Shown piece after piece: positions 39,430-61,646 of a stretch of 64,000 nt of DNA; position 1 is the first letter of the stretch; every line of letters starts with the position of its first letter. The notes under the pieces are model-generated. The model was not told the DNA's origin and did no database searches. It saw only the letters and a program-made list of their open reading frames with translations. The position numbers and the translations under genes were made by a program. Origin of the DNA: Neptunicoccus cionae (lineage in GTDB: Bacteria; Pseudomonadota; Alphaproteobacteria; Rhodobacterales; Rhodobacteraceae); assembly GCF_014643735.1 (NCBI RefSeq), contig NZ_BMKA01000003.1, positions 124,001-188,000 on the forward strand, given 5' to 3'.

Positions 39430-41298
39430 ATGACCACGCATATTTTTAACGCATTTAGAGCAACTGATAAAAAAGACGTCCTTACACTGGTAAACAATAA
39501 CTCCAGTGTGGCAATGACATTCAATCATATCGGGGAGACGCTGAGCTACCATTTTGGCGATGATGAACCCAAAGGCCTGTCTCCCGTCACGTTGAACACG
39601 GTCCCGCAGCAGGTCGTCATCGACGGTACGATTTACAACGGACTGGATGGCTTTCAGGATATCGACGTTGGTCGTATCGAGTGGGGCGACGACAAAACAT
39701 CCGACATCATGCTGATCCATCTGTCGCGGACAGAGTTCGTCTTTATTAATATTGCAGGAGATCCAGTAAAAGTGGACTCCACTGCGCAACTCCGAAACTT
39801 CGTGTCGAGCCTGACCGGTGAAGGCCCGATCGAATCCGGAGATCTTGCCCAGAACCAGTCCTTCAGCTTCACCCGCTTCACAGATCACGTCTCTTTCGTC
39901 GAAGACGACACTATCACAGGGACGAAGGATGACGACAACTACAGGCTCGGAGCGGGCGATGATATTGTATATGCCCTCGGAGGCTCGGATCTGATCGACG
40001 GCGAGGACGGCAACGACACCCTGTTTGGCGGCGACAGTCAGGACTACCTTTACGGCGGCAAAGGGAACGATCATCTTTACGGCGGAGCATCCGGTTATTC
40101 GAGTTCGTTTGGCGTAGATCGACTCTTCGGTGACGCTGGTAAGGACTATCTGTTTGGGGGCCCTGAGCAAAGCGAGCTTTACGGAGGTGGCGGGCGCGAC
40201 AAACTTTACCTGCTTGAAGGTGACGGGGTCGTTTATGGCGGCGGTGGCGGTGACAAAATATATCTTGAGACAGAGCTGTTTGGCGGGCTGATTGAAATGC
40301 AGGCTTCTGGCGACAGCGGCAACGATAAAATTTTCGGCGGAAATGCTTCTGATTATCTCTACGGCGGTGACGGGCGCGACTTGATTAAAGGGGCCAAACG
40401 CTCTGATTTTATTGACGGCCGGAACGGTGATGACAGGTTGCTCGGCGGTGCGGGCGCGGATCAAGTTATCGGAGGCGCCGGTAAAGATAAAATTTTCGGG
40501 CAGAAAGGGTCCGATGATCTTTATGGCGGGGAAGGTGCGGACGAATTTTATGGTGGTAAAGGCAACGACACCGCATCGTACGAAAGGGATGCTGGCGCTG
40601 TGATTGCATCCCTGAAAGACGACAGCAAGAACGCCGGCGCTGCTGCCGGTGATACCTATCACAGCATCGAAAACTTGCTTGGAAATTCCTCCCATGACCA
40701 TCTTACTGGCGATAACGGGAAGAATGCGCTCCACGGTGGTGCGGGAAACGACGCGCTGTTTGGCGGGGCCGGTGCAGACAGGCTTTCGGCTGACGACGGC
40801 AACAACAGCCTTTACGGCGGTAAGGGTAACGACAACTTGGAAGGGTTCGGGATCGGGACCAATTTGTACTACGGCGGCAAGGGAAAGGACACTATTTGGG
40901 ACGAGTCCAGAGGCGCTACAGTTCATGGGGGTGGAGGCGCGGACTACATCGAAACATCATCAGGCCGTGACATAATTTTCGGCGGATCTGGTGCGGACGA
41001 TATTTACAGCGGGAAAGGCAATGACACGGTTGCCGGCGACGGCGGGTCGGACAGTTTCCACTTTGGCAAGACTGAGAACGACAAACTTACCATCACCGAT
41101 TTCAAGGATGGCGAAGACACTCTGGTTTTCGATACGGACCTCTACAGGACAAAATCCGGCGATTTCATGGGGGCAAACGCTTTTATGGACACTTACGCCG
41201 AGGAAACCGGTAGCGATGTCCTGTTCGATTTCGGCGGTGGCAACACGGTCCTCGTGAAAGATATGACAGTATCAGAGCTGACAGACGATATCGCGTAA
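39430..41298 (+). CDS. RTX (hemolysin-type calcium-binding repeat) protein
   Basis: This acidic 622-residue protein has no Sec signal. Residues 1-155 form a beta-rich N-terminal domain of unknown type. About residues 158-540 hold many glycine- and aspartate-rich nonapeptide RTX repeats (patterns such as GGxGxDxLxG: LFGGDSQDYLYGGKGNDHL, LLGGAGADQVIGGAGKDKI), some degenerate. The end (about 540-622) resembles the C-terminal type I secretion signal region, closing with DMTVSELTDDIA. It is probably exported by a type I system and folds on binding calcium outside the cell. No type I ABC exporter is nearby. By eye, base composition is more AT-rich than its neighbours. AGGAGG precedes the ATG. Confidence 0.88.
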   Translation: MTTHIFNAFRATDKKDVLTLVNNNSSVAMTFNHIGETLSYHFGDDEPKGLSPVTLNTVPQQVVIDGTIYNGLDGFQDIDVGRIEWGDDKTSDIMLIHLSRTEFVFINIAGDPVKVDSTAQLRNFVSSLTGEGPIESGDLAQNQSFSFTRFTDHVSFVEDDTITGTKDDDNYRLGAGDDIVYALGGSDLIDGEDGNDTLFGGDSQDYLYGGKGNDHLYGGASGYSSSFGVDRLFGDAGKDYLFGGPEQSELYGGGGRDKLYLLEGDGVVYGGGGGDKIYLETELFGGLIEMQASGDSGNDKIFGGNASDYLYGGDGRDLIKGAKRSDFIDGRNGDDRLLGGAGADQVIGGAGKDKIFGQKGSDDLYGGEGADEFYGGKGNDTASYERDAGAVIASLKDDSKNAGAAAGDTYHSIENLLGNSSHDHLTGDNGKNALHGGAGNDALFGGAGADRLSADDGNNSLYGGKGNDNLEGFGIGTNLYYGGKGKDTIWDESRGATVHGGGGADYIETSSGRDIIFGGSGADDIYSGKGNDTVAGDGGSDSFHFGKTENDKLTITDFKDGEDTLVFDTDLYRTKSGDFMGANAFMDTYAEETGSDVLFDFGGGNTVLVKDMTVSELTDDIA

Positions 41299-41392
41299 AT
41301 CTGGGATCGCGCGCCGGTCATCGCAAGGTGCTACCGGCGAATTTACCCAAGCATAACAGACCGAATCAAATATGCGACGGGCGGCCAATGCA

Positions 41393-41426
41393 TTATGTGA
41401 TCACATAATTTTATCGTGTGATCACA
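41393..41426. promoter_or_regulatory. Twin palindromic operator upstream of sucC
   Basis: The first site is the perfect 16-bp palindrome TTATGTGATCACATAA (41393-41408). The second is the 10-bp palindrome TGTGATCACA followed by TAA (41417-41426). Their centres are exactly 21 bp apart, two helical turns, so a dimeric regulator could bind both on one face. The same core occurs at 53331-53340 in front of the GntR gene. It lies 107-140 bp ahead of sucC, in the probable promoter. Confidence 0.7.
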
Positions 41427-41532
41427 TAACAGCATATTTGTGCCGATACGGGGAAAATTCTTCTTTTTCCCTTCAAACACAGTGCGGGATGTGCGACCAA
41501 CAGGTGAATTCTTTGCCTAAGGGACAGCTCGC

Positions 41533-42726
41533 ATGAACATTCACGAATATCAAGCCAAACAACTTTTGAAAGAATACGGTGCTCCGGTATCCGACGGCCG
41601 CGTGGTTCTGCGCGCCGAAGATGCCAAGACCGCCGCAGGAGAGCTGGACGGACCGCTTTGGGTTGTCAAAGCACAAATCCACGCAGGTGGACGCGGTAAA
41701 GGCTCTTTCAAAGAGGAATCCGCTGGCGAAAAAGGTGGTGTGCGCCTGACTAAATCCGTGGAAGAAGCCGCAGAAGAAACACGCAAGATGCTGGGCCGCA
41801 CATTGGTTACCCATCAAACCGGTCCGGCTGGCAAGCAGGTAAACCGCGTTTACATCGAAGACGGTTCGGGCATCGAAAAAGAACTCTACCTCGCGCTGCT
41901 GGTGGATCGCGTATCCAGCCGCGTCTCTTTTGTGGCCTCCACTGAAGGTGGCATGGACATTGAAGAAGTTGCAGCCAACACGCCCGAAAAGATCATTTCC
42001 TTTTCGGTTGATCCGGCATCCGGTCTGTCCGCATTCCACGGCCGCCGCGTTGCATTCGCGCTGGGTCTGGAAGGCGCACAGGTTAAACAGTGCGTTCAAC
42101 TGATCGCGAAGCTTTACAAAATGTTCGTCGAGCGCGACATGGAGATGCTGGAAATCAACCCGCTAATCGTCACTGATAAAGGCGATCTGAAGTGTCTCGA
42201 CGCGAAAATGGGTTTTGATGGCAACGCTCTGTACCGTCAGAAGGATATTCTGGCATTGCGGGATGAAACCGAAGAAGACCCCAAAGAACTCGCCGCCTCC
42301 AAGTTCGATCTGAACTACATTGCGCTGGACGGTGAAATCGGTTGCATGGTGAACGGTGCCGGTCTGGCGATGGCCACAATGGACATCATCAAGCTGTACG
42401 GCGCAGAGCCTGCCAACTTCCTTGATGTGGGTGGCGGTGCGACCACTGAAAAAGTAACCGAGGCTTTCAAGATCATCACGTCCGATCCGAACGTCAAAGG
42501 CATTCTGGTCAACATCTTTGGTGGCATCATGCGCTGTGACGTAATCGCAGAGGGCGTTGTTGCGGCTGTGAAAGAAGTCGGCCTTCAGGTTCCGCTGGTT
42601 GTGCGTCTGGAAGGCACAAACGTCGAAGAAGGAAAGAAGATCATCAACGAGAGCGGCCTAGCCGTGATTGCTGCGGACGATCTGGGCGATGCTGCACAGA
42701 AGATCGTTAAAGAGGTCAAAGGCTAA
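41533..42726 (+). CDS. sucC: Succinate--CoA ligase subunit beta
   Basis: This is the beta subunit of succinyl-CoA synthetase, which makes ATP or GTP from succinyl-CoA in the TCA cycle. The 397-residue protein has an N-terminal ATP-grasp domain ([29 protein letters not shown]) and the C-terminal CoA-ligase domain ([34 protein letters not shown]). It is the first gene of a long plus-strand TCA operon. A 22-bp-arm palindrome separates it from sucD. Confidence 0.97.
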
Positions 42727-42727
42727 A

Positions 42728-42781
42728 GTAGGGCGGGATTCACCCCGCCAGCGCTTATTGGCGGGGTGAACCCCGCCCTAC
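42728..42781. repeat. Palindromic intergenic element between sucC and sucD
   Basis: Two 22-nt arms beginning GTAGGGCGGG and ending CCCGCCCTAC pair with a single mismatch around a 10-nt loop. This very stable hairpin fills the gap between sucC and sucD. A shortened relative lies downstream of sucB. The sequence resembles REP-like palindromes; effects on mRNA stability or subunit ratio are inference. Confidence 0.7.
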
Positions 42782-42806
42782 CCCAAATTACCAAGGAACA
42801 AACACT

Positions 42807-43688
42807 ATGGCCGTACTCGTAAACAAGAACACCAAAGTTATATGTCAGGGCATCACCGGCTCTCAGGGGACTTTCCACTCTGAGCAGGCTATTGAATATG
42901 GCACGCAAATGGTTGGCGGTGTGACACCGGGCAAAGGCGGGCAAACTCACCTGAACATGCCGGTTTTCAACTCTGTCCATGAAGCCAAAGCGATGACCGA
43001 GGCCAATGCTTCTGTGATCTACGTCCCCCCGCCCTTCGCTGCGGATTCCATTCTTGAAGCCATTGATGCGGAAATGGAACTGATCGTCTGCATCACCGAA
43101 GGCATTCCGGTTCTGGACATGATGAAGGTAAAACGGGCGCTTGAAGGCTCCAAATCCCTGCTGATCGGTCCGAACTGTCCGGGTGTTATCACGCCGGGTG
43201 AATGTAAGATCGGCATCATGCCGGGCCACATCCACAAACCGGGTTCTGTGGGCATCGTTTCCCGCTCCGGTACGCTGACCTATGAAGCGGTTGGTCAAAC
43301 ATCTGCAGCGGGTCTGGGTCAGTCCACAGCCATCGGCATCGGCGGCGATCCGATCAAAGGCACAGAGCACATCGACTGTCTGGAAATGTTCCTTGCAGAT
43401 GAAGACACGCATTCCATCATCATGTTGGGCGAAATCGGCGGTTCTGCAGAAGAAGAAGCCGCACAGTTCCTCAAAGACGAAGCCAAGAAGGGTCGATCCA
43501 AGCCTTGCGCCGGTTTCATCGCTGGCCGCACAGCGCCTCCGGGTCGTCGCATGGGTCACGCCGGTGCGATCGTTGCAGGTGGCGTCGGTGGCGCAGAAGA
43601 CAAGATCGAAGCGATGAAATCTGCTGGTATCGTTGTAGCTGACAGCCCTGCCGGTCTTGGCGAAGCTGTGATCAAGGCTATCGGCTGA
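42807..43688 (+). CDS. sucD: Succinate--CoA ligase subunit alpha
   Basis: This is the alpha subunit of succinyl-CoA synthetase. The 293-residue protein has the CoA-binding Rossmann domain ([17 protein letters not shown]), the phosphohistidine region [21 protein letters not shown] and the GxCPG loop ([23 protein letters not shown]). AAGGA precedes the ATG. The stop shares a base with the start of the following unknown gene. Confidence 0.97.
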
Positions 43689-44395
43689 TGCCCCGCCGCC
43701 CTGAAGGTTGCGCGGATGCTGCGCACATGTTCCTGACTGGCGGCTATAAACTGGCAAGGCGCGCCCGTCGCGCCTTGTGTGCTTTGCTTTTGGTAGGGCT
43801 TGCCCCAGCTGCGCACGCTTTTGACGCGGCCACTTGCACCACTCCGGCGCAAAGCTTTGCCGATCTGGAAAACGCACTGAGCGCAGAAGGTTGGAGCGTT
43901 GTCGAAAAACAAACCAAACCCGTCATCGAGGCCCTCGCCTGGATCGGGATGCCGCAATATTTTGCAGGGGACAGCGGCGGACGCTCGCAAGCTTATGTGC
44001 TGGATCTGAAACGGGCCGCGGCGAAGGGGTATTTTCGCAAGAAAGACCTGACAAACGCTAAGACCCGCATTCTGACCCGCAAAGCAGGCCGCCAAACCGA
44101 ACTGCTACTGGTATCTTGGTTGAAGACCTCGCTGATGCAAATCCAGGTCACCTGCGATTTCGCCTTGAGCGAAGCATCGACCGCCCCCTTGCGCACTGAA
44201 CATACGGCCCTAACTTACGACAAAGGCTATGCGCGTATACCCACGGAATACGGCGCGGACAGGACCGCCATGCATCATTCCCAACTCGTCTTTCTGGACC
44301 GAGAAACTTTAAAATCCAGCCTGAACATCAATATTCCGGCGTCTGCTATTCTCTCAACCTCCCTGAGCTATCCCGCAAAGGACCACAAACCATGA
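43688..44395 (+). CDS. Unknown secreted protein encoded inside the suc operon
   Basis: I do not recognise this family. The 235-residue product carries a signal peptide-like stretch (RRALCALLLVGLAPAAHAFDA, roughly residues 28-48) after a basic N-terminus, then a mature domain of about 187 residues with two cysteines (ATCTTP and VTCDFA). It is predicted to be periplasmic. Its start overlaps the sucD stop (TGATG) and its stop overlaps the sucA start (ATGA), so it is tightly coupled to TCA-cycle enzymes although it seems to be exported. A shorter form from the ATG at 43727 is possible. Confidence 0.7.
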   Translation: MPRRPEGCADAAHMFLTGGYKLARRARRALCALLLVGLAPAAHAFDAATCTTPAQSFADLENALSAEGWSVVEKQTKPVIEALAWIGMPQYFAGDSGGRSQAYVLDLKRAAAKGYFRKKDLTNAKTRILTRKAGRQTELLLVSWLKTSLMQIQVTCDFALSEASTAPLRTEHTALTYDKGYARIPTEYGADRTAMHHSQLVFLDRETLKSSLNINIPASAILSTSLSYPAKDHKP

Positions 44396-47349
44396 CCGAA
44401 CATCCTTCCAACGACCAGTTTAATGCTGAGAGTTTTTTGCAGGGACATAATGCTGAATATATCGAACAGCTTTATGCGCGGTTTACGAAAGACCCCTCTG
44501 CAGTGGATGCAGCATGGGGCGATTTTTTCCGTTCTATGGATGATCCGGCAAAGGACGTTCAGGCAGAAGCAGCCGGTCCAAGCTGGGCGCGCACAGACTG
44601 GCCCCCCCAGCCAAATGATGACCTGACAGCCGCACTGGATGGTCAATGGGGCGTGGACCCGAGCGCGAACGCCGAGAAGAAAATCACCGAAAAAGCCGCT
44701 GAAAAAGGCGTCGCGATTTCAGAAACGCAGGTGCGTCAGGCTGTGCTGGATTCGGTTCGTGCCTTGATGCTGATCCGCGCCTACCGCATTGTCGGACATC
44801 TGGCAGCGGACCTTGATCCGCTTGATATGCGCAAAACCGGCGACTTGCCGGAACTGAAGCCGGAAAACTACGGTTTCTCTGAGTCCGATATGGACCGGCC
44901 AATCTTTCTGGATAACGTATTGGGTCTGGAAACAGCCACCATGCGCGAGATTCTAGAGATCGTGAAACGCACATATTGTGGCACTTTCGCGCTGCAATAC
45001 ATGCATATTTCCGATGCGGAACAGGCAAGCTGGCTGAAAGAACGGATCGAAGGTTTCGGCAAGGAAATCCACTTCACCAAGGAAGGTCGTAAGGCGATCC
45101 TGCAAAAGATGGTCGAAGCCGAGGGCTTTGAGAAGTTCCTACACGTTAAATACACTGGCACCAAACGCTTTGGTTTGGACGGCGGCGAAAGCCTGATCCC
45201 CGCGATGGAACAGATCATCAAACGGGGCGGCGCGCTCGGCGTTCAGGACATCATCATCGGCATGCCCCACCGTGGCCGTTTGAACGTTTTGTCGAACGTG
45301 ATGCAAAAGCCATTCCGCGCGATCTTTAACGAATTTCAGGGCGGCAGTTTCAAACCCGAAAGTGTTGATGGGTCAGGTGATGTTAAATACCATCTCGGCG
45401 CGTCTTCAGACCGCGAATTCGACGGCAATTCTGTGCACCTGTCCCTGACTGCGAACCCTTCTCACCTTGAAGCGGTCAATCCTGTGGTTCTGGGCAAGGC
45501 CCGTGCTAAACAGGAACAGCTGAATGACGAAGAACGCACCAAGGTGCTGCCAATCCTGCTGCACGGCGATGCGGCCTTTGCTGGACAAGGTGTGGTTGCG
45601 GAATGTTTCGGCCTGTCCGGTCTGAAAGGCCATAAAACCGGTGGGACGATCCATTTGGTCGTAAACAACCAGATCGGCTTTACCACTGCGCCGCATAACT
45701 CGCGCTCCAGCCCTTATTGCACCGATATCGCCCTGATGGTGGAAGCACCGATCTTCCACGTAAACGGCGACGATCCCGAAGCTGTGGTCCATGCGGCGAA
45801 AGTGGCGATCGAATTCCGGCAGAAGTTCCACAAGGATGTGGTGATCGACATCATCTGTTACCGTCGTTTCGGCCACAACGAGGGCGACGAGCCCATGTTC
45901 ACCAACCCCGAAATGTACACCCAGATCAAAAAACACAAAACCACGCTCGCGGTTTATACGCAGCGTCTGGTAAAGGACGGTCTGATCCCCGAGGGCGAAA
46001 TCGAAGACCAGAAAGCCGCGTTTCAGGCCTATCTGAACGAAGAGTTCGAGGCCGGGAAAACATTTAAACCCAACAAGGCCGACTGGCTGGACGGACGCTG
46101 GTCCCATCTTGATAAACGGGGTGAGGAATACCAGCGCGGTGCGACTTCCGTGAACGAGGACTCCTTGCGCAGCGTCGGGGATGCCCTGACCACCCTGCCC
46201 GACGGCTTTAACGTCCACCGCACCGTGGCACGGCTGCTGGAAGCCAAAAAAGAGATGTTCAACTCCGGTAAGAACATCGACTGGGCCACAGCCGAAGCGC
46301 TTGCCTTTGGTACATTGCTGCGCGAAGGGTATCCGGTGCGACTGTCGGGTCAGGATTCCACCCGCGGTACATTCAGTCAGCGTCACTCCGGTATTATCGA
46401 CCAGAAAACCGAAGAGCGCTACCTGCCGCTAAACCACATCGCGGACAAACAGGCGAAATATGAAGTCATCGACTCCATGCTGTCAGAATATGCGGTGCTT
46501 GGGTATGAATACGGCTACACCCTTGCGGAACCCAATGCGCTGACCCTCTGGGAAGCGCAATTCGGGGACTTCGCCAATGGTGCGCAGATCATGTTCGACC
46601 AGTTCATCAGCTCAGGCGAAAGCAAATGGCTGCGGATGTCGGGGCTCGTCTGTTTGCTGCCTCATGGGTATGAAGGCCAAGGGCCAGAGCACTCAAGCGC
46701 GCGTCTGGAACGCTTCCTGACCATGTGTGGCGGGGACAACTGGATCGTGGCGAACTGTACAACGCCTGCGAACTATTTCCACATCCTGCGTCGACAGATG
46801 CACCGGACCTACCGCAAGCCGCTGATCCTGATGACGCCAAAATCCCTGCTGCGCCATAAAATGGCCGTGTCCAAACTGGAAGAAATGGCCGAAGGCTCCA
46901 GCTTCCACCGCGTGCTTTGGGATGATGCGCAATACGGCAATTCCGACACGCAACTGGTGGATGACGCCAAGATCAAGCGGGTGGTTCTGTGTTCCGGCAA
47001 GGTCTACTACGATCTGCTGGAAGAACGCGACAAACGCGGGATTGATGACATCTACCTGCTGCGTCTGGAACAGTTCTACCCGTTCCCCGCCCATTCCATG
47101 GTGACAGAGCTGCAACGTTTTCAGGACGCCGATTTTGTCTGGTGTCAGGAAGAGCCCAAGAACCAAGGGGCTTGGTCCTTTGTAGAACCGAACATCGAAT
47201 GGGTTCTGACCCGTATCGAACACAAAAACACCCGCCCGTCCTATGTGGGCCGTAACGCTTCGGCGTCGCCGGCAACAGGTCTGGCAAGCCAACATAAAGC
47301 AGAACAACAAGCGCTGGTGAATGACGCGCTGACATTAGAGGATAAATAA
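44392..47349 (+). CDS. sucA: 2-oxoglutarate dehydrogenase E1 component
   Basis: This thiamine-diphosphate-dependent E1 subunit decarboxylates 2-oxoglutarate and passes the succinyl group to SucB. The 985-residue protein has the N-terminal segment ([19 protein letters not shown]) used to dock E2. The core contains [30 protein letters not shown] and the ThDP-binding region [11 protein letters not shown]...NNQIGFTT. The C-terminal transketolase half ([28 protein letters not shown]) follows. The start overlaps the preceding stop (ATGA), and sucB begins 2 bp after the stop. Confidence 0.97.
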
Positions 47350-47351
47350 CC

Positions 47352-48893
47352 ATGGCCGACGTAAGAGTACCAACTTTGGGCGAAAGCGTAACCGAGGCGA
47401 CAATCGCCACATGGTTTAAACAGCCCGGTGACAGCGTTGCAGTAGACGAAATGCTGTGCGAACTGGAAACGGATAAAGTCACCGTCGAAGTCCCTTCCCC
47501 AGTGGCAGGCACTTTGGGGGAGATCGTCGCTGCAGAGGGCGAAACTGTTGGCGTTGATGCGTTGCTGGCCGTGATCAGCGAAGGCGGCGAAGCGACTGCC
47601 GCTCCGGCCAAGAAAGACGCGCCAGCGGAAGCAAAAGCAGACGCAAAACCGGCTGACAATACGGCCAAACCGGCTGAAGGTGGGGAAGATGTGCCTGTGA
47701 TGGTTCCTGCCCTCGGTGAAAGCGTCACAGAAGCCACTGTAGCCACATGGTTCAAGGCTGAAGGCGACGAAGTGGCTATGGATGAAATGCTGTGCGAATT
47801 GGAAACAGACAAAGTTTCTGTCGAGGTTCCTGCACCGGCTGCCGGAATCCTGACCAAGGTTTATGCCAACGACGGTGAGACCGTGGAAGCAGGCGCCAAA
47901 CTTGCCCTTATTTCTGCCGGTGCTGGCAATGGTGCAGCGAAGTCCGACACACAAGCGGTTGCCGCAACAGCCGATCCTAAAATCACCAGCGACGGCATGA
48001 AAAACGCGCCTTCCGCGGAAAAACTGATGGCTGAAAAAGGTCTGACAGCGGATCAGATCACAGGCACAGGCCGTGACGGGCGGATCATGAAAGAGGACGT
48101 GCTTAAGGCCGAAGCCTCTGGCGGTGCGTCCAAACCGGCGGCTGCTACACCTCCACGCGCGGCAGCTTCGGCGCCGGTAGCGGCGGATCAGGCCGGGCGT
48201 GAAGAGCGGGTGAAGATGACCCGTCTGCGCCAGACCATCGCGCGTCGCTTGAAAGACAGCCAGAACACCGCCGCCATGCTGACCACCTACAATGAGGTGG
48301 ACATGACCGAGGTGATGGCCCTGCGCAATGAATACAAAGACCTGTTCCTAAAGAAACACGGCGTAAAGCTCGGCTTTATGTCCTTCTTCACCAAGGCTTG
48401 TAACCACGCGCTGAAAGAAGTGCCCGAGGTGAACGCCGAAATCGACGGCACCGAAATTGTTTACAAAAACTACGTGAACATGGGGATTGCCGCAGGCACG
48501 CCGACAGGTCTGGTGGTTCCGGTGGTCAAAGACGCAGACAGCATGTCCTTTGCCGCGATCGAAAAGGAAATCGCACGTTTGGGTGGTCTCGCCCGTGACG
48601 GAAAACTGTCTATGGCAGATATGCAGGGCGGCAGCTTTACCATCTCTAACGGTGGGGTTTACGGCTCGCTTATGTCCTCGCCCATTTTGAACCCGCCACA
48701 ATCGGGTATTCTGGGGATGCACAAGATTCAGGACCGTCCGATGGCAATCAACGGCGAAGTTGTTATCCGTCCGATGATGTATCTGGCCCTGTCCTACGAT
48801 CACCGCATCGTGGATGGCAAAGGCGCTGTGACCTTCCTTGTACGGGTCAAAGAAGCACTGGAAGATCCCCGCCGCCTGCTTATGGATTTGTGA
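47352..48893 (+). CDS. sucB: 2-oxoglutarate dehydrogenase E2 (dihydrolipoyl succinyltransferase), two lipoyl domains
   Basis: This is the core subunit of the 2-oxoglutarate dehydrogenase complex. The 513-residue protein has two N-terminal lipoyl domains with lipoylation sites K42 and K154 (each in ELETDKV), joined by an Ala/Lys/Pro-rich linker. A peripheral subunit-binding domain ([32 protein letters not shown]) and a C-terminal acyltransferase domain with [14 protein letters not shown] follow. Many E2s of this type have only one lipoyl domain, so the duplication is notable, although it may be common in this family. It begins 2 bp after sucA. Confidence 0.96.
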
Positions 48894-48905
48894 TTGCGAT
48901 AGGTT

Positions 48906-48948
48906 AATCCCCGCCCTACCGTGAAAGGTAGGGTGGGGTTTGCCCACC
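48906..48948. repeat. Palindromic element downstream of sucB with alternative stems
   Basis: Stem A pairs CCCCGCCCTACC with GGTAGGGTGGGG (48909-48938, one G-T pair). Stem B pairs GGTGGG with CCCACC (48932-48948) and would break stem A. The sequence is related to the sucC-sucD palindrome. It lies between sucB and the first MAPEG gene, where it could affect transcript processing or read-through. Confidence 0.6.
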
Positions 48949-48974
48949 GCAAAACCAGCCAAAGGAGAATACCC

Positions 48975-49361
48975 ATGACCTCCGAACTATCCATTCTTGC
49001 CCTCTATGGCCTGCTCGTCATCCTGACGATTGTTGTGCAGGCGTCTTTCGGTGCGGCGCAACTGGGCCTGCCCTATCTGGCGACCGCCCGTGATGAGGGG
49101 CGGGAACTGTCCGGCATGGGTGCGCGCGTTGAACGCAGTCTGAACAATTCGGTCGTCGCACTGGCCCTGTTTGCCCCTGCGGTGCTGATACTGGCCGTAA
49201 GCGGCGCAACCACAGCCAGCACCCTGCTGGCCGCACAGGTGTTTCTGATCGCGCGTATTCTTTATGCGCCAATTTACTGGTTTGGCATTCCTTGGGTACG
49301 GACCTTGGTTTGGGCTATCGGGTTTCTATCAACCATCTACCTTTATCTTGCGGCGCTCTGA
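48975..49361 (+). CDS. MAPEG family membrane protein, copy 1
   Basis: This four-span membrane protein of 128 residues belongs to the MAPEG group (glutathione transferase/leukotriene synthase-like). The ALYGLLVILTIVVQA first helix and the GARVERSLNNSVVALALFAPAV segment are typical. Bacterial MAPEG functions are mostly unknown. AAGGAG lies before the ATG at 48975; the longer frame from 48921 overlaps the palindrome. A second MAPEG gene follows, and both lie between sucB and lpdA in the same orientation. Confidence 0.85.
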   Translation: MTSELSILALYGLLVILTIVVQASFGAAQLGLPYLATARDEGRELSGMGARVERSLNNSVVALALFAPAVLILAVSGATTASTLLAAQVFLIARILYAPIYWFGIPWVRTLVWAIGFLSTIYLYLAAL

Positions 49362-49391
49362 GCTAGCTAAGACCGTGAGTACTTTTAAATC

Positions 49392-49430
49392 GCAACCCCG
49401 ACGCAAAACGCGAAAAATTGTCGGGGTTGC
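49392..49430. repeat. Inverted repeat between the two MAPEG genes
   Basis: Perfect 11-bp arms GCAACCCCGAC and GTCGGGGTTGC are separated by 17 bp. There is no T-run after it. It could shape mRNA processing within the operon or act as a protein-binding site. Confidence 0.55.
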
Positions 49431-49463
49431 AGCCTTCCGCCGAACTGAACCGGACAGAGTTTT

Positions 49464-49874
49464 ATGACCACAGAGATCACAGTCCTGACCTATGCGGCCC
49501 TGCTGCAAGTGGTGCAATTCGCACTGATGTCGATTACGGCCAATCTGGATGTGGGACCGGGGAAGACCATGTCTGCCCGTGACCCTTCCCGACTGGGAAA
49601 ACCGGTACAAGAACTGTTGTCGGAAAAGCCGGGCCGTCTGTTCCGCGCCTTCAACAATCACTTTGAAGGCCTGATCCTGTTCACAATCGCCGTCGTGGTG
49701 GTGACACTGGGCGAGCAATCCACAGGCTTTACCGCAATTTGCGCTTGGGTCTACCTCGGCGCACGTGTTCTTTACATTCCGGCCTATTACTATGGCCTCG
49801 CGCCCGGCCGTTCGATCATCTGGTTTGTCGGCTTCCTTGCCACGGTCTTCATGCTGCTGGCCACATTGGTATGA
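49464..49874 (+). CDS. MAPEG family membrane protein, copy 2
   Basis: This 136-residue protein has four hydrophobic segments and the MAPEG-like core GRLFRAFNNHFEGLILFTIAVVVVTL, in which the arginine and asparagine-rich turn corresponds to the glutathione-binding area of the family. It is only distantly similar to the neighbouring copy, so the pair is not a recent duplication. The stop overlaps the next gene's start (ATGA). Function is unknown. Confidence 0.85.
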   Translation: MTTEITVLTYAALLQVVQFALMSITANLDVGPGKTMSARDPSRLGKPVQELLSEKPGRLFRAFNNHFEGLILFTIAVVVVTLGEQSTGFTAICAWVYLGARVLYIPAYYYGLAPGRSIIWFVGFLATVFMLLATLV

Positions 49875-50524
49875 TTGCGCTCGATCATATTGCGCTGGCG
49901 GCGGCTACCCTTTCCGAAGGCGTTGACTATGTGAAAACCCGAAGCGGCGTGACTGTGCCGTTCGGCGGTGCCCATCCGGGGCGTGGGACCCATAACGCGC
50001 TGACCGCCACTGGCGGAGGCAGCTATCTGGAGATCATCGCCCCCGATCCCGAACAGGATGAACCGCAAACCCCGCGCCTGTTTGATCTTGATGCAACAAC
50101 CACAAAGGCCGCGCTGATGGGTGGGCCACGTATCCAGACCTATCTGCTGCGCACGGATGACATCGAACGGGACATGGCGATCTTTCGTGAACACGATTTT
50201 GATCTCGGCCAATCCGTCACCGCAGCGCGCGGCGATTTGCGCTGGCAGATTGCCTTGCGCGGTGATGCCAAGCTGAACGCCCAAGGGGTGGTTCCGGTGC
50301 TGTTGCAATGGCCGGACGGCCCCCACGTGAGCGAAAGCATGGACAATCAGGGCCTTAGCCTGCAGCGTCTGGATATACACACCCCACTGGCGGATGAGTT
50401 GACCGCGCTTTACCGCGCCCTTGGCCTTGTGGACGACCGTATTTCAGTGACCCCCGCAGCACATCCTGCGATCACTGCGACCTATCAAACACCCGACGGC
50501 AAACTGGCTGTATTGGGCGACTGA
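49871..50524 (+). CDS. VOC/glyoxalase-like domain protein
   Basis: This 217-residue soluble protein starts with MIALDHIALAAATL, a typical first strand of the vicinal oxygen chelate fold. It continues with HPGRGTHNALTATGGGSYLEIIAPDP, like the glyoxalase-like PF13468 group. Such proteins bind a metal and act on small molecules, but the substrate is unknown. The ATG at 49871 lies within the upstream MAPEG stop (ATGA). The longer reading frame from 49739 runs over that gene and is rejected. lpdA follows 20 bp downstream. Confidence 0.82.
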   Translation: MIALDHIALAAATLSEGVDYVKTRSGVTVPFGGAHPGRGTHNALTATGGGSYLEIIAPDPEQDEPQTPRLFDLDATTTKAALMGGPRIQTYLLRTDDIERDMAIFREHDFDLGQSVTAARGDLRWQIALRGDAKLNAQGVVPVLLQWPDGPHVSESMDNQGLSLQRLDIHTPLADELTALYRALGLVDDRISVTPAAHPAITATYQTPDGKLAVLGD

Positions 50525-50544
50525 CATTTTAAAGGAGACCTATC

Positions 50545-51933
50545 ATGGCAGACTATGACGTAATCATCATCGGTGGTGGCCCGGGCGGCTATGTCTGTGC
50601 GATCCGCTGTGCGCAATTGGGACTGAAAACAGCCTGTGTTGAAGGCCGTGGCGCCCTTGGCGGCACTTGCCTGAACGTGGGTTGTATCCCGTCCAAAGCC
50701 CTGCTGCACGCGTCGCACATGCTGCACGAGGCAGAGCATAACTTTGCTAAAATGGGTCTGAAAGGCAAAAGCCCCTCTGTGGATTTCAAACAGATGCTGG
50801 CCTATAAAGACGAAACCATCACACAGAATACCAGCGGCATTGAGTTCCTGTTCAAAAAGAACAAAGTGGACTGGCTGCGCGGTTGGGGCAAGATCTCTGG
50901 CAAGGGCGAGGTTTCTGTGGATGGCGAAGTTCACAAAGCGAAGAATATCGTCATCGCGACAGGCTCCGAACCATCGAGCCTGAAAGGTGTCGAGGTGGAC
51001 GAAAAAGTCGTCGTGAGCTCCACCGGTGCTTTGGAACTGCCTAAAGTGCCAAAAACCATGGCCGTGATCGGTGCCGGTGTGATCGGGCTGGAACTCGGGT
51101 CCGTCTATTCCCGTCTTGGCACGGAAGTGACCGTGATTGAATACCTCGACCACATCACGCCCGGCATGGACAAGGAAACCGGCAAGGCGCTGCAACGCAC
51201 GTTGAAAAAGCAGGGTCTGAAGTTTGTTCTGAACGCGGCTGTGCAAAGCGTTGAGGCCTCCAAAACCAAAGCCAAACTGACCTATGAAACCCGCAAAAAA
51301 GGCGAATCCGTCACCATTGATGCGGATGTCGTTCTGGTCGCCACAGGGCGCAAACCTTACGTTGACGGTTTGGGTTTCACCGAACTTGGCGGCGAAATGA
51401 CAGAGCGCGGCCAGATCAAAACCAACGGCACATGGGGCACCACCATTGAAGGTGTATATGCCATCGGTGACGTTATCGAAGGCCCGATGCTGGCCCATAA
51501 AGCAGAAGACGAAGGCATGGCCGTAGCTGAACAAATCGCAGGCAAACATGGCCATGTGAACTACGGCGTTATTCCTGGCGTGATCTACACAACCCCCGAA
51601 GTGGCTTCTGTTGGCAAAACCGAAGAGCAACTGAAAGAGGAAGGCGTGGCCTATAAGGTTGGCAAATTCCCCTTCATGGGAAACGCCCGCGCCAAAGCGG
51701 TGCATCAGGGCGATGGTTTTGTGAAACTGCTGGTGGATAAAGAAACAGACCGGATCTTGGGCTGTCACCTGATTGGGCCATCTGCTGGTGATCTGATCCA
51801 CGAAATCTGTGTGGCAATGGAATTCGGTGCTTCGGCACAAGATGTGGCGCTGACCTGCCATGCCCACCCGACCTTCTCTGAAGCGGTGCGCGAAGCCGCA
51901 CTTGCCTGTGGTGACGGCGCAATCCATGCGTAA
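50545..51933 (+). CDS. lpdA: Dihydrolipoyl dehydrogenase (E3)
   Basis: This FAD enzyme re-oxidises the dihydrolipoyl groups of SucB and passes electrons to NAD+. The 462-residue protein has the N-terminal FAD motif [14 protein letters not shown], the redox disulfide in [19 protein letters not shown], a second dinucleotide motif [19 protein letters not shown] and the C-terminal [14 protein letters not shown] with the catalytic His-Glu pair. AAGGAG precedes the ATG. It completes the 2-oxoglutarate dehydrogenase set encoded in this operon. Confidence 0.96.
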
Positions 51934-51939
51934 CGCCTA

Positions 51940-52668
51940 GTGGAACTCGCTCTTTTAGCCGCCGGCGCGCTCGCTGGCGGCTTTGTGAATGGACTGACAG
52001 GATTCGGCTTTGCCTTGATGTCTGCCGGATTTTGGCTGATCGTGCTTCCCCCGACAACGGTTGTGCCGCTGATGGCCGCCTGCATGACCTGTGGTCAATT
52101 GCTGACCATGCCGCGTATCTGGCGGATGATAGAGGTGAAACGCGCCCTCCCTTTAACACTGGGTGGGTTGATCGGTGTGCCCTTCGGGATCGCCCTGTTG
52201 CCCCATGTGCCACTGCCCCAGTTCAAAGCGGGGGTGGCCCTGCTGATTTGTCTCAACCTGCTGTTCGTTCTGGTCCTGCAAAACCGCCTATCCCTGCCCC
52301 GCAGCGCAGAGCGGTTTCATTTCCCAATTGGTATTCTGTCCGGTGTGTTTGGAGGGATTTCCGCGCTATCCGGCGTCGTCACAACCATTTGGGCCGGATT
52401 GTTCGGCTGGACCAAACAAGAAAAACGCGGGGTATTTCAGGCGTTTAACCTGTCGATGGGGTTGTTCTCGCTCAGTCTGTTTGCCTATTGGGGATACCTC
52501 GACAAACAGTTTTTTTACACAGCCCTGTTTGTCATCCCACTGACTATGCTTGCCGCGACAATCGGTCTGCGGGTGTTTGAGCGGATGGGCAATGCAGGCT
52601 TCACCAAGCTTATAAATCTGCTGCTCGGCCTGTCGGCACTGAACCTGTTGGTATCGGTGTTTTTCTGA
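51940..52668 (+). CDS. TauE/SafE family permease, copy 2
   Basis: This 242-residue membrane protein with about seven to eight hydrophobic segments shows the family repeat motifs GGFVNGLTGFGFALMSAG near the N-terminus and GVFGGISALSGVVTTIWAG in the middle. It starts with GTG 6 bp after the lpdA stop, so it is probably the last gene of the suc operon. The transported anion is unknown. It converges with the GntR gene, only 4 bp apart. Confidence 0.85.
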   Translation: MELALLAAGALAGGFVNGLTGFGFALMSAGFWLIVLPPTTVVPLMAACMTCGQLLTMPRIWRMIEVKRALPLTLGGLIGVPFGIALLPHVPLPQFKAGVALLICLNLLFVLVLQNRLSLPRSAERFHFPIGILSGVFGGISALSGVVTTIWAGLFGWTKQEKRGVFQAFNLSMGLFSLSLFAYWGYLDKQFFYTALFVIPLTMLAATIGLRVFERMGNAGFTKLINLLLGLSALNLLVSVFF

Positions 52669-52672
52669 ACGC

Positions 52673-53323
52673 CTAACTGCCGAGCATTCGCAAGCCTTGG
52701 GTCACATCAGCCCGAATAGCCAGCTTAAGCCCCGGTTCATCCCCCGCCCGCAAAGCCGCAATCGCGGTACGGTGGTTTCCGGCGGCATTGGGCCTCTGCA
52801 AGCGGGCGTAAAGCGCGCTCATGGTCGGGCCAAGCTGCAACCAGACCGTTTCCACCATCGCCAGCATCGCCGGAGCCTGCGCACGCAGATAAAGCGTGCG
52901 GTGAAACTCCAGATTGCTGCGAATATACCCCACGGCATCCTTTTTTACGATCATCTGTTCAATGGTCGTGTTGATGTTCTGCAAACGCTCGATCAGTGCC
53001 AGATGCGCCCGCGGTTGGGCCCGCGCGGCAAGTTCCGGTTCCAGCAGCGCCCGGATAGAAGCCAGTTCTTCGATCCGTTCGGTGCTAAGCTGGGGGGCAG
53101 ACACACGGCCGGTTTTAGACAGGGACAACGCACCTTCCGCTGTCAGGCGGCGCACCGCCTCGCGTGCGGGTGTCATTGACACGCCGTAGGTTTCAGCAAT
53201 GCCCCGTATGGTAAGCGCCTGCCCCGGAGTGATCTCTCCGTGCATGATTTCAGAACGCAGCGCGCGGAAAACCCGCTCGTGGGTCGGGGTGGTGGTTTCT
53301 GCGGGGCGGTCTGGTTTTGTCAT
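52673..53323 (-). CDS. GntR family (FCD-type) transcriptional regulator
   Basis: This regulator has 216 residues: an N-terminal winged helix-turn-helix (about 12-78, with ITPGQALTIRGIAETYGVSMTPAREAVRRLTAEGAL) and an all-helical FCD ligand-binding domain (about 85-212). FCD regulators usually bind palindromes of the form GT-n-AC and respond to organic acids or sugar acids. A TGTGATCACA palindrome sits 7 bp upstream of its start codon, and a 14-bp tandem repeat farther up. The same palindrome occurs twice upstream of sucC, so it may control itself and the suc operon; this is inference. Confidence 0.9.
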   Translation of the reverse strand: MTKPDRPAETTTPTHERVFRALRSEIMHGEITPGQALTIRGIAETYGVSMTPAREAVRRLTAEGALSLSKTGRVSAPQLSTERIEELASIRALLEPELAARAQPRAHLALIERLQNINTTIEQMIVKKDAVGYIRSNLEFHRTLYLRAQAPAMLAMVETVWLQLGPTMSALYARLQRPNAAGNHRTAIAALRAGDEPGLKLAIRADVTQGLRMLGS

Positions 53324-53330
53324 GGCTTTT

Positions 53331-53340
53331 TGTGATCACA
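53331..53340. promoter_or_regulatory. Palindrome TGTGATCACA in front of the GntR gene
   Basis: This perfect 10-bp palindrome occupies the place where the Shine-Dalgarno sequence of the GntR gene would be. It matches the two sites upstream of sucC. A weaker relative (TCTGATCACC) lies at 53377-53386. It is the likely binding site of the encoded regulator for autoregulation. Confidence 0.6.
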
Positions 53341-53389
53341 CTGACTGTCTTTGTCAATGACAGAGACCCGATGTTTCTGATCACCCTGC

Positions 53390-53473
53390 AAATATGAAGC
53401 GTCATAAATGAAGCGTCTTGTATCACGCGTCATATATGAAGCTTCTTAAATGAAGCGTCATATATGCAGTGTC
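53390..53473. repeat. 14-bp tandem repeat, six copies
   Basis: Six head-to-tail units start at 53390, 53404, 53418, 53432, 53446 and 53460. The consensus is ATAWATGAAGCGTC; copies 2, 4 and 5 are near-perfect and copy 3 is the most diverged. A further degenerate unit follows. The period is not a multiple of three and the array lies between the stop of the metallopeptidase gene and the start of the GntR gene, so it is non-coding. Confidence 0.85.
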
Positions 53474-60440: not shown

Positions 60441-61646
60441 CTACCCGTCTTGTTGCACCTCTGATAGGCGGCTTCCGACAAACACCGCCGCGCCGCTTAG
60501 CGCTGCCATGATCCCCAGCACCAGTTGTGGTCCGGCGGCGTCTGCGATCACGCCAAAGATGCCGCCCGCCAGCAGCAGTGCGCCGATCATCGTATTGGAC
60601 AGCGCCGTGTAGACCGGTTTGCGGTCATGGCTGTCCATGTCGGTCAGATGGGTTTTGCGCCCTGCCCGCGCCCCCTGATAGGCGATCTGGGCGAAGAAGA
60701 CATAGGCCGCGATCAGCCAACCTCCGCCCCCCATTCCAAACAGGCCACCAACCGCGGCGAGTGCGAAGATCACACCGGACACGCCCCCCGCAACCATCAG
60801 GGTCTGGCGGCTGGAGTAATCGGCGAAGGTGCCCCACAGGTAGGACGACACAATGGATGCGATGGAGGATGCAAGGATCAGCAGCCCAAGATTGCCAAAG
60901 CCGCTTTCGCTCTCCCCGCCGCCAAGCATGATCAGGAAAGGCGGCGCCAGCGCTGTAGAGATAAGCAAGGCGCGGGTGGCGATGTACGTACGAAACTCGC
61001 TATCCTCACGCAGGGGTTGGCTTAGCCCTTTCAAGGATTGCTCTGCATCCTTCGAAGTTTCGGCTTCCGGTTCGTCGAGCGTGGTAAAGATAAAGGACGC
61101 CAGCAGCCAGAGCCCTCCGGCCAGTGCAATGGCAATTGCGATCACAGCGGGGTCTCGTGGCAGGATTTGAAAGCTCAGCAATAAAGCAAACACAAAAACC
61201 ACGACCGCCGACAGGGTTCCGGCAAGGCCTGACACCCGCCCCCGACGCCCCTTTTCAACCGTGCGGGCGAGAATATCCTTGAAGCTGGCAGAACAGACCG
61301 ACCGCGCCACCGCAAGAACCGCAAGGCAGAGCAGGATCGCCCAACCCGCCGCCGCACCTTCCAACAGGATCGCCGCTGCGGCCATTCCGAATGCCGCCAA
61401 CCCTTGAACAGCGGCGCCACCCGCCCAGAAATATTTGCGAAGATGGCGGCGCTCCAGCATTCGGGCGAATAACAATTGTGGAAATAACGAACCGGATTCG
61501 CGCACCGGCACCAGAAAGCCGATCAGATACCCCGGCGCACCGAGCGCGTTTAGCAACCACGCAAGCACAAGTTTCGGATTGATTAGCCCATCGGCCGTTT
61601 TGGTCAGGGCCAGCGCGCTGACGTGGGTGATAAATGCTTTGTTCAT
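60441..61646 (-). CDS. MFS transporter
   Basis: This major facilitator superfamily permease (401 residues) has about eleven or twelve hydrophobic segments and a central loop around residues 195-220 rich in charged residues. The usual family A motif is weak. It most resembles uncharacterised alphaproteobacterial MFS proteins. The ATG at 61646 is chosen because the membrane part starts shortly after; the longer frame to 61742 begins upstream in the icd terminator. A role with the neighbouring catabolic cluster is possible but unproven. Confidence 0.82.
   Translation of the reverse strand: MNKAFITHVSALALTKTADGLINPKLVLAWLLNALGAPGYLIGFLVPVRESGSLFPQLLFARMLERRHLRKYFWAGGAAVQGLAAFGMAAAAILLEGAAAGWAILLCLAVLAVARSVCSASFKDILARTVEKGRRGRVSGLAGTLSAVVVFVFALLLSFQILPRDPAVIAIAIALAGGLWLLASFIFTTLDEPEAETSKDAEQSLKGLSQPLREDSEFRTYIATRALLISTALAPPFLIMLGGGESESGFGNLGLLILASSIASIVSSYLWGTFADYSSRQTLMVAGGVSGVIFALAAVGGLFGMGGGGWLIAAYVFFAQIAYQGARAGRKTHLTDMDSHDRKPVYTALSNTMIGALLLAGGIFGVIADAAGPQLVLGIMAALSGAAVFVGSRLSEVQQDG

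Follow-up and report, generated by a model that had tools for sequence, protein, structure and literature searches.

The suc locus and its palindromic sites

We analysed a window of 64,000 nucleotides from Neptunicoccus cionae, meaning the whole stretch presented above (contig NZ_BMKA01000003.1, positions 124,001–188,000). The subject is a short palindrome, TGTGATCACA, shared by the suc operon and a nearby gene for a GntR/FCD regulator (gntR). The exact word occurred three times (sites 1–3), with no further copy in the 64 kb. The features of the locus, in window coordinates, were as follows.

41392–41409, no strand given: site 1 upstream of sucC, an 18-bp palindrome with core TGTGATCACA at 41396–41405 (motif search and reading by eye)
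41417–41426, no strand given: site 2, also before sucC; its centre and that of site 1 are 21 bp apart (motif search)
41533–42726, plus strand: sucC, first gene of the operon (NCBIfam succinate-CoA ligase beta)
42807–43688, plus strand: sucD (open reading frame, conserved neighbour of sucC; named from position and recall)
44392–47349, plus strand: sucA, 2-oxoglutarate dehydrogenase E1 (family match)
47352–48893, plus strand: sucB, E2 component (open reading frame, conserved neighbour; named from position and recall)
50545–51933, plus strand: lpd, dihydrolipoyl dehydrogenase (family match)
51940–52668, no strand given: TauE-family gene between lpd and gntR (family match)
52673–53323, minus strand: gntR, GntR/FCD regulator of 216 amino acids, probable AkgR orthologue (GntR and FCD domains)
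53331–53340, no strand given: site 3, single candidate operator ending 7 bp before the gntR ATG (motif search)
53352–53357, minus strand: TTGACA, the predicted −35 element for gntR, separated from site 3 by 11 bp on its upstream side (conserved columns across 56 non-redundant promoters)

The three copies were far above chance: 0.05 were expected in the window, none of 100 shuffles reached three, and the Poisson chance was ~1e-5 at 57% G + C. With one mismatch allowed, a single additional match appeared, at 61137, against 1.6 expected at that looseness. The half-sites abutted, with 0 bp between them, in all three palindromes, ruling out a CRP/FNR site with its usual spacing (TGTGA-N6-TCACA). 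An earlier reading of the letters alone (the sequence-only reading) had located all three sites and the exact 21-bp distance between the sucC centres correctly. It had described site 1 as a palindrome of 16 bp; the palindrome is there, at a length of 18 bp. It had also placed the regulator gene just past the end of the operon. The gene does follow lpd, with the TauE-family gene intervening, and is convergent to the suc operon.

Directly upstream of sucC, at 39430–41298, the window carries a gene with matches to RTX-type calcium repeats. A similar frame was found at this place in Amylibacter cionae, and mdh occupies it in three other loci (L160, L165, L169).

The regulator and its own promoter

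The regulator matched the Pfam domains GntR (1.4e-14) and FCD (2.1e-17), in line with the type proposed from its translation. The AlphaFold model had a predicted local distance difference test score (pLDDT) of 89. Both the best phmmer match and the closest solved fold were E. coli McbR/YncC (PDB 4p9f; Foldseek TMq 0.87, 27% identity), and the fold search of the PDB returned general FCD relatives only and no effector. In the FCD domain, residues N137, H141, H184 and D206 were invariant in 38 aligned orthologues. FCD metal sites usually consist of a D-H-H-H set; because these four residues depart from it, they suggest a modified metal/acid site.

A regulator-protein scan yielded 445 confirmed loci, of which we used the best 80, titled as Rhodobacteraceae genera or alphaproteobacteria. 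The window's nearest relatives among them were a Rhodobacteraceae metagenome-assembled genome (L001, regulator 98% identical) and Amylibacter cionae (L002, 97%). A site with at most one mismatch stood just before gntR in 70 of the 80 loci; in 68 of these, the first in-frame ATG followed 6–9 bp after the site, and in the other two 2 bp after. Orthologues of 46% (G034) and 51% (G123) identity kept the exact site before their own start, and no site preceded the gene of a 42% paralogue in G055.

The motif TTGAC stood 17 bp before the start of the gntR site, its columns being conserved in 48 (T), 48 (T), 42 (G), 45 (A) and 47 (C) of 56 promoters. The site thus follows TTGAC and precedes the start codon; it covers the spacer and the predicted −10, and the predicted transcription start is close to the ATG. 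Because of this arrangement, the site suits autorepression as predicted from the promoter sequence, and the gntR message is probably leaderless.

Further upstream in the window, we observed a degenerate second copy, TTTCTGATCACCCTG, at 53374–53388, at a distance of 45 bp from site 3. Immediately before the gntR promoter, at 53394–53463, lies a 14-bp tandem repeat (ATGAAGCGTCATAA-like, about five copies, spacing 14); in L001 and L002, the 80 bp preceding the gntR site showed no such repeat.

Paired sites before sucC and sdhC across the family

Since several other promoter sets had been gathered with a fixed 21-bp spacing, we also ran an unselected test, in which the sucC and sdhC promoters of 31 family genomes were fetched by protein and the spacing was left free (12–40 bp, up to 3 mismatches). 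A pair of sites was present in 25 of 30 sucC promoters, 23 times at 21 bp and twice at 20 bp. Every one of the 24 genomes holding a close orthologue (by the hand split described below) had it, as did one (G020) of the six without; loss of the site before sucC in relatives that keep the regulator, which would have spoken against the proposed link, was therefore not seen. For sdhC (29 genomes, one with a second copy), 21 of 30 promoters carried the pair, 19 at 21 bp and two, including that of A. cionae, at 20 bp; nine had none. The sdhC pair accompanied a close orthologue in 21 of 24 genomes and appeared in none of the five lacking one.

Loci chosen by the regulator agreed with this picture. All 17 of the best 80 loci with at least 260 bp upstream of sucC held a 21-bp pair with no more than 2 of its 20 positions mismatched. 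In the 80 loci, close sites with at most one mismatch were spaced by 21 bp in 19 cases, by 36 bp in one and by 19 bp in one. In 42 non-redundant sucC promoters, collected allowing up to 2 mismatches, both palindromes were near-invariant and flanked outward by T and A runs, and most surrounding columns held little information.

A larger family test covered 149 genomes, scanned for a 21-bp pair with at most one mismatch and for a reversed pattern as control. The regulator was detected in 139 at E 1e-20, and a split by hand near E 1e-70 gave 131 close orthologues, 8 weaker matches and 10 genomes with none. The pair was found in 114 genomes and the control in 0. It occurred in 110 of the 131 genomes with a close orthologue, versus 4 of the 18 others (Fisher p 2e-7, a value that ignores kinship). 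When up to 3 mismatches were allowed in the 21 pair-negative genomes that hold an orthologue, 14 gained a pair, each before sucC or sdhC, raising the count to 124 of 131, and the 18 genomes without a close orthologue stayed at four. sucC was present in 35 of the 39 re-scanned genomes, in G022 and G148 only as a homologue of 52–53% identity. The regulator promoter and the suc operon do share one candidate operator, as had been supposed, and throughout the family operator and gene are conserved together.

Genes associated with the sites

Seventy pair loci were fetched by motif (30 returned by the pair scan and 40 picked from its list, some genomes being represented twice). The gene after the pair was sucC in 47, sdhC in 21 and sucA in one. 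In the remaining locus (L122, genome G043), the pair preceded none of the query genes and may mark a further target.

Exact single sites were counted in five whole genomes (A. cionae, Yoonia vestfoldensis, Celeribacter baekdonensis, Ruegeria halocynthiae and Rhodovulum marinum; three C. baekdonensis sites were placed from locus L040). The 10-bp word occurred 2–10 times per genome, partly inside genes. Of the eight in A. cionae, two preceded sucC and one each gntR and sdhC, the sdhC site having a one-mismatch partner 20 bp off. Another lay close to a malyl-CoA-lyase-like gene, a further one may be intergenic, and the last two fell inside other genes. Across the five genomes, 12 exact sites lay away from suc, sdh and gntR, and 11 of these were viewed. 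Eight overlapped plausible open frames (L082, L083, L159, L162, L163, L168, L170, L172) and are likely due to chance; the other three (L081, L084, L167) may be intergenic. By these counts, single sites are not confined to suc, sdh and gntR, and pairs nearly are. Two of the possibly intergenic sites could mark additional targets: position 1501 of L084 (A. cionae), between mdh and the malyl-CoA-lyase-like gene and hence TCA-linked (tricarboxylic acid cycle), and position 1501 of L167 (C. baekdonensis), ~70 bp upstream of a FAD-oxidoreductase-like frame.

Promoter geometry and sign of regulation

In the 42 sucC promoters, a T-rich element followed site 2 by 47–49 bp. A weighted −35/−10 scan most frequently placed the best core promoter 47–48 bp after the pair for sucC (23 of 63) and 57–59 bp after it for sdhC (10 of 22), so the two distances differ by about one helical turn. 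If transcription begins 35 bp past the −35 element, the centres of the sucC sites fall near −87 and −108. Judged from these computed promoters, the positions fit an activator and not a simple blocking repressor. Because the pair lies upstream of the commonest predicted −35, and because the suc and sdh distances are about one turn apart, repression of suc is unlikely. Activation is the most likely sign at suc; only at the gene of the regulator itself is repression likely.

Proposed mechanism and alternatives

The sites, their spacing, positions and conservation and their co-occurrence with the regulator gene were observed directly. On this basis, we consider it highly probable that the regulator is an AkgR orthologue which activates suc and sdh from paired sites and represses its own gene from a single one. 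Dimers of the regulator would bind TGTGATCACA. At the suc and sdh operons, two adjacent dimers, spaced by 21 bp or about two helical turns, would lie upstream of the core promoter and switch on the genes for the TCA-cycle steps from 2-oxoglutarate to fumarate; activation is reported for the R. sphaeroides orthologue. At its own gene, a single dimer between the −35 and the start codon, over the predicted −10, would block transcription and so provide negative feedback on the activator. The effector would probably be a TCA-linked acid in the FCD pocket.

A more specific proposal is tentative, and we rate it slightly below an even chance: across the family, one palindrome would act with opposite signs. 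The phased 21-bp pair, whose distance to the core promoter differs by one helical turn between the two operons, would activate the TCA segment, and the single copy, placed between the −35 and the start codon, would repress a leaderless regulator gene. AkgR would then be a homeostat of 2-oxoglutarate flux, with N137, H141, H184 and D206 as a modified FCD metal/acid sensor.

We must also consider that the same regulator represses suc as well as its own gene and that a TCA acid derepresses both, which was in essence the sequence-only reading. Many FCD-GntR proteins are repressors, and paired operators also suit cooperative repression. In addition, the core promoters are computed, and the scan put the best one elsewhere in 40 of 63 sucC promoters, in some of them close to the pair. 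Against this stand the commonest predicted −35 elements, located beyond the pair and about one turn apart between sucC and sdhC, and the description of the orthologue as an activator in PMC6365646. Repression at suc is therefore improbable, and of the autoregulated repressor proposed earlier we retain the autoregulation, which fits a single site over the regulator's own core promoter.

Two further explanations dispense with the regulator. Another protein, for instance of the CRP/FNR family, might read the palindrome, gntR being merely one of its targets; TGTGA and TCACA are indeed CRP half-sites. However, CRP needs 6 bp between them and here there are none, the pair co-occurs with the regulator gene, and the gntR site is kept in orthologues of 46–51% identity and missing before the 42% paralogue. 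With GTGATCAC also reported among the AkgR sites in PMC6365646, we regard this explanation as very improbable. Hardly credible at all is that the palindromes arose by chance or are functionless sites inherited with neighbouring DNA. The frequency of the 10-bp word in the five genomes, partly within genes, would allow for it, but not three copies in 64 kb against 0.05 expected, nor palindromes near-invariant amid columns of low information, nor a 20–21 bp pair in 25 of 30 sucC promoters taken without the motif.

Several observations weigh against activation from paired sites by an AkgR orthologue. The window's own sucC core promoter was a weak match in the scan, which also placed the best sdhC core promoter elsewhere in 12 of 22 cases. 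The gntR site had at least two mismatches in 10 of the best 80 loci, and only 15 of the 27 exact sites in the five genomes were at suc, sdh or gntR. The sdhC pair was absent in three of 24 genomes with a close orthologue (G008, G013, G031), and 7 of 131 such genomes had no 21-bp pair even at 3 mismatches; one of the seven, G010, carries a 20-bp pair, the other six having been scanned at 21 bp only. Conversely, the pair turned up in four of the 18 genomes that lack a close orthologue. One of them (G034) holds the 46% orthologue, and our guess is that the other three are incomplete assemblies. The orthologue-free genomes may simply form a more distant branch. Finally, the probable assignment to AkgR rests on motif, targets and gene order.

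For the family, the proposed site rule (phased pairs at suc and sdh, a lone site at the regulator gene) opens the sign of TCA control, its cooperativity and its feedback to direct testing. The analysis also corrects the natural, and probably wrong, guess that this FCD regulator represses the TCA operon.

Comparison with known systems

The system closest to ours is AkgR of Rhodobacter sphaeroides, which we take to be RSP_0981. AkgR is said to activate TCA genes directly (Imam et al., mBio, 2015). Motif, targets and gene order point to the gene at 52673–53323 as an AkgR orthologue. Published descriptions of AkgR give a GntR protein, a GTGATCAC site and sucCD, sucAB-lpd and sdh as targets: in PMC4344238, the predicted targets of RSP_0981 are sucCD (RSP_0967-6), sdh (RSP_0974-6) and the 2-oxoglutarate dehydrogenase complex (RSP_0965-62), and PMC6365646 presents AkgR as an activator of transcription whose binding sites include GTGATCAC. 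In our data, the GTGATCAC palindrome was present at putative target promoters: that of sucC in the window, and that of sdhC in A. cionae, a near relative, and in most genomes of the family sample. The gene order near sdh and suc may be alike as well: locus L174 reads lpd-sucB-sucA-sucD-sucC-mdh-mcl-like-MaoC-like-sdh-gntR, an order that appears to parallel the numbering RSP_0962-0981. The differences are the species and the position of gntR, which in the window lies directly past lpd and tauE. Neither the 21-bp phasing nor the self-operator was found for AkgR in the titles and passages, from papers other than the primary AkgR report, that our literature searches covered, and among the titles returned by a search for TGTGATCACA there was no comparable regulator study. 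The sdhC target and the prior description of the system lay beyond the view of the sequence-only reading.

E. coli McbR/YncC (PDB 4p9f) shares the fold most closely, and its targets differ from suc and sdh. CceR (RSP_1663) is likewise an alphaproteobacterial regulator of central carbon metabolism. It belongs to another family, LacI, and PMC4344238 gives its site as [A/G/T]GTT-N6-8-AAC[A/C/T]. PS417_07240, the GntR-like regulator of the Pseudomonas simiae deoxyribonate cluster, is described in PMC6365646 as 32% identical to AkgR, with a conserved GTGATCAC upstream, and serves a different pathway. The link between the suc operon and its regulator is real and already described in kind, and a previously uncharacterised regulator of marine Rhodobacteraceae now takes its place in a known regulon.

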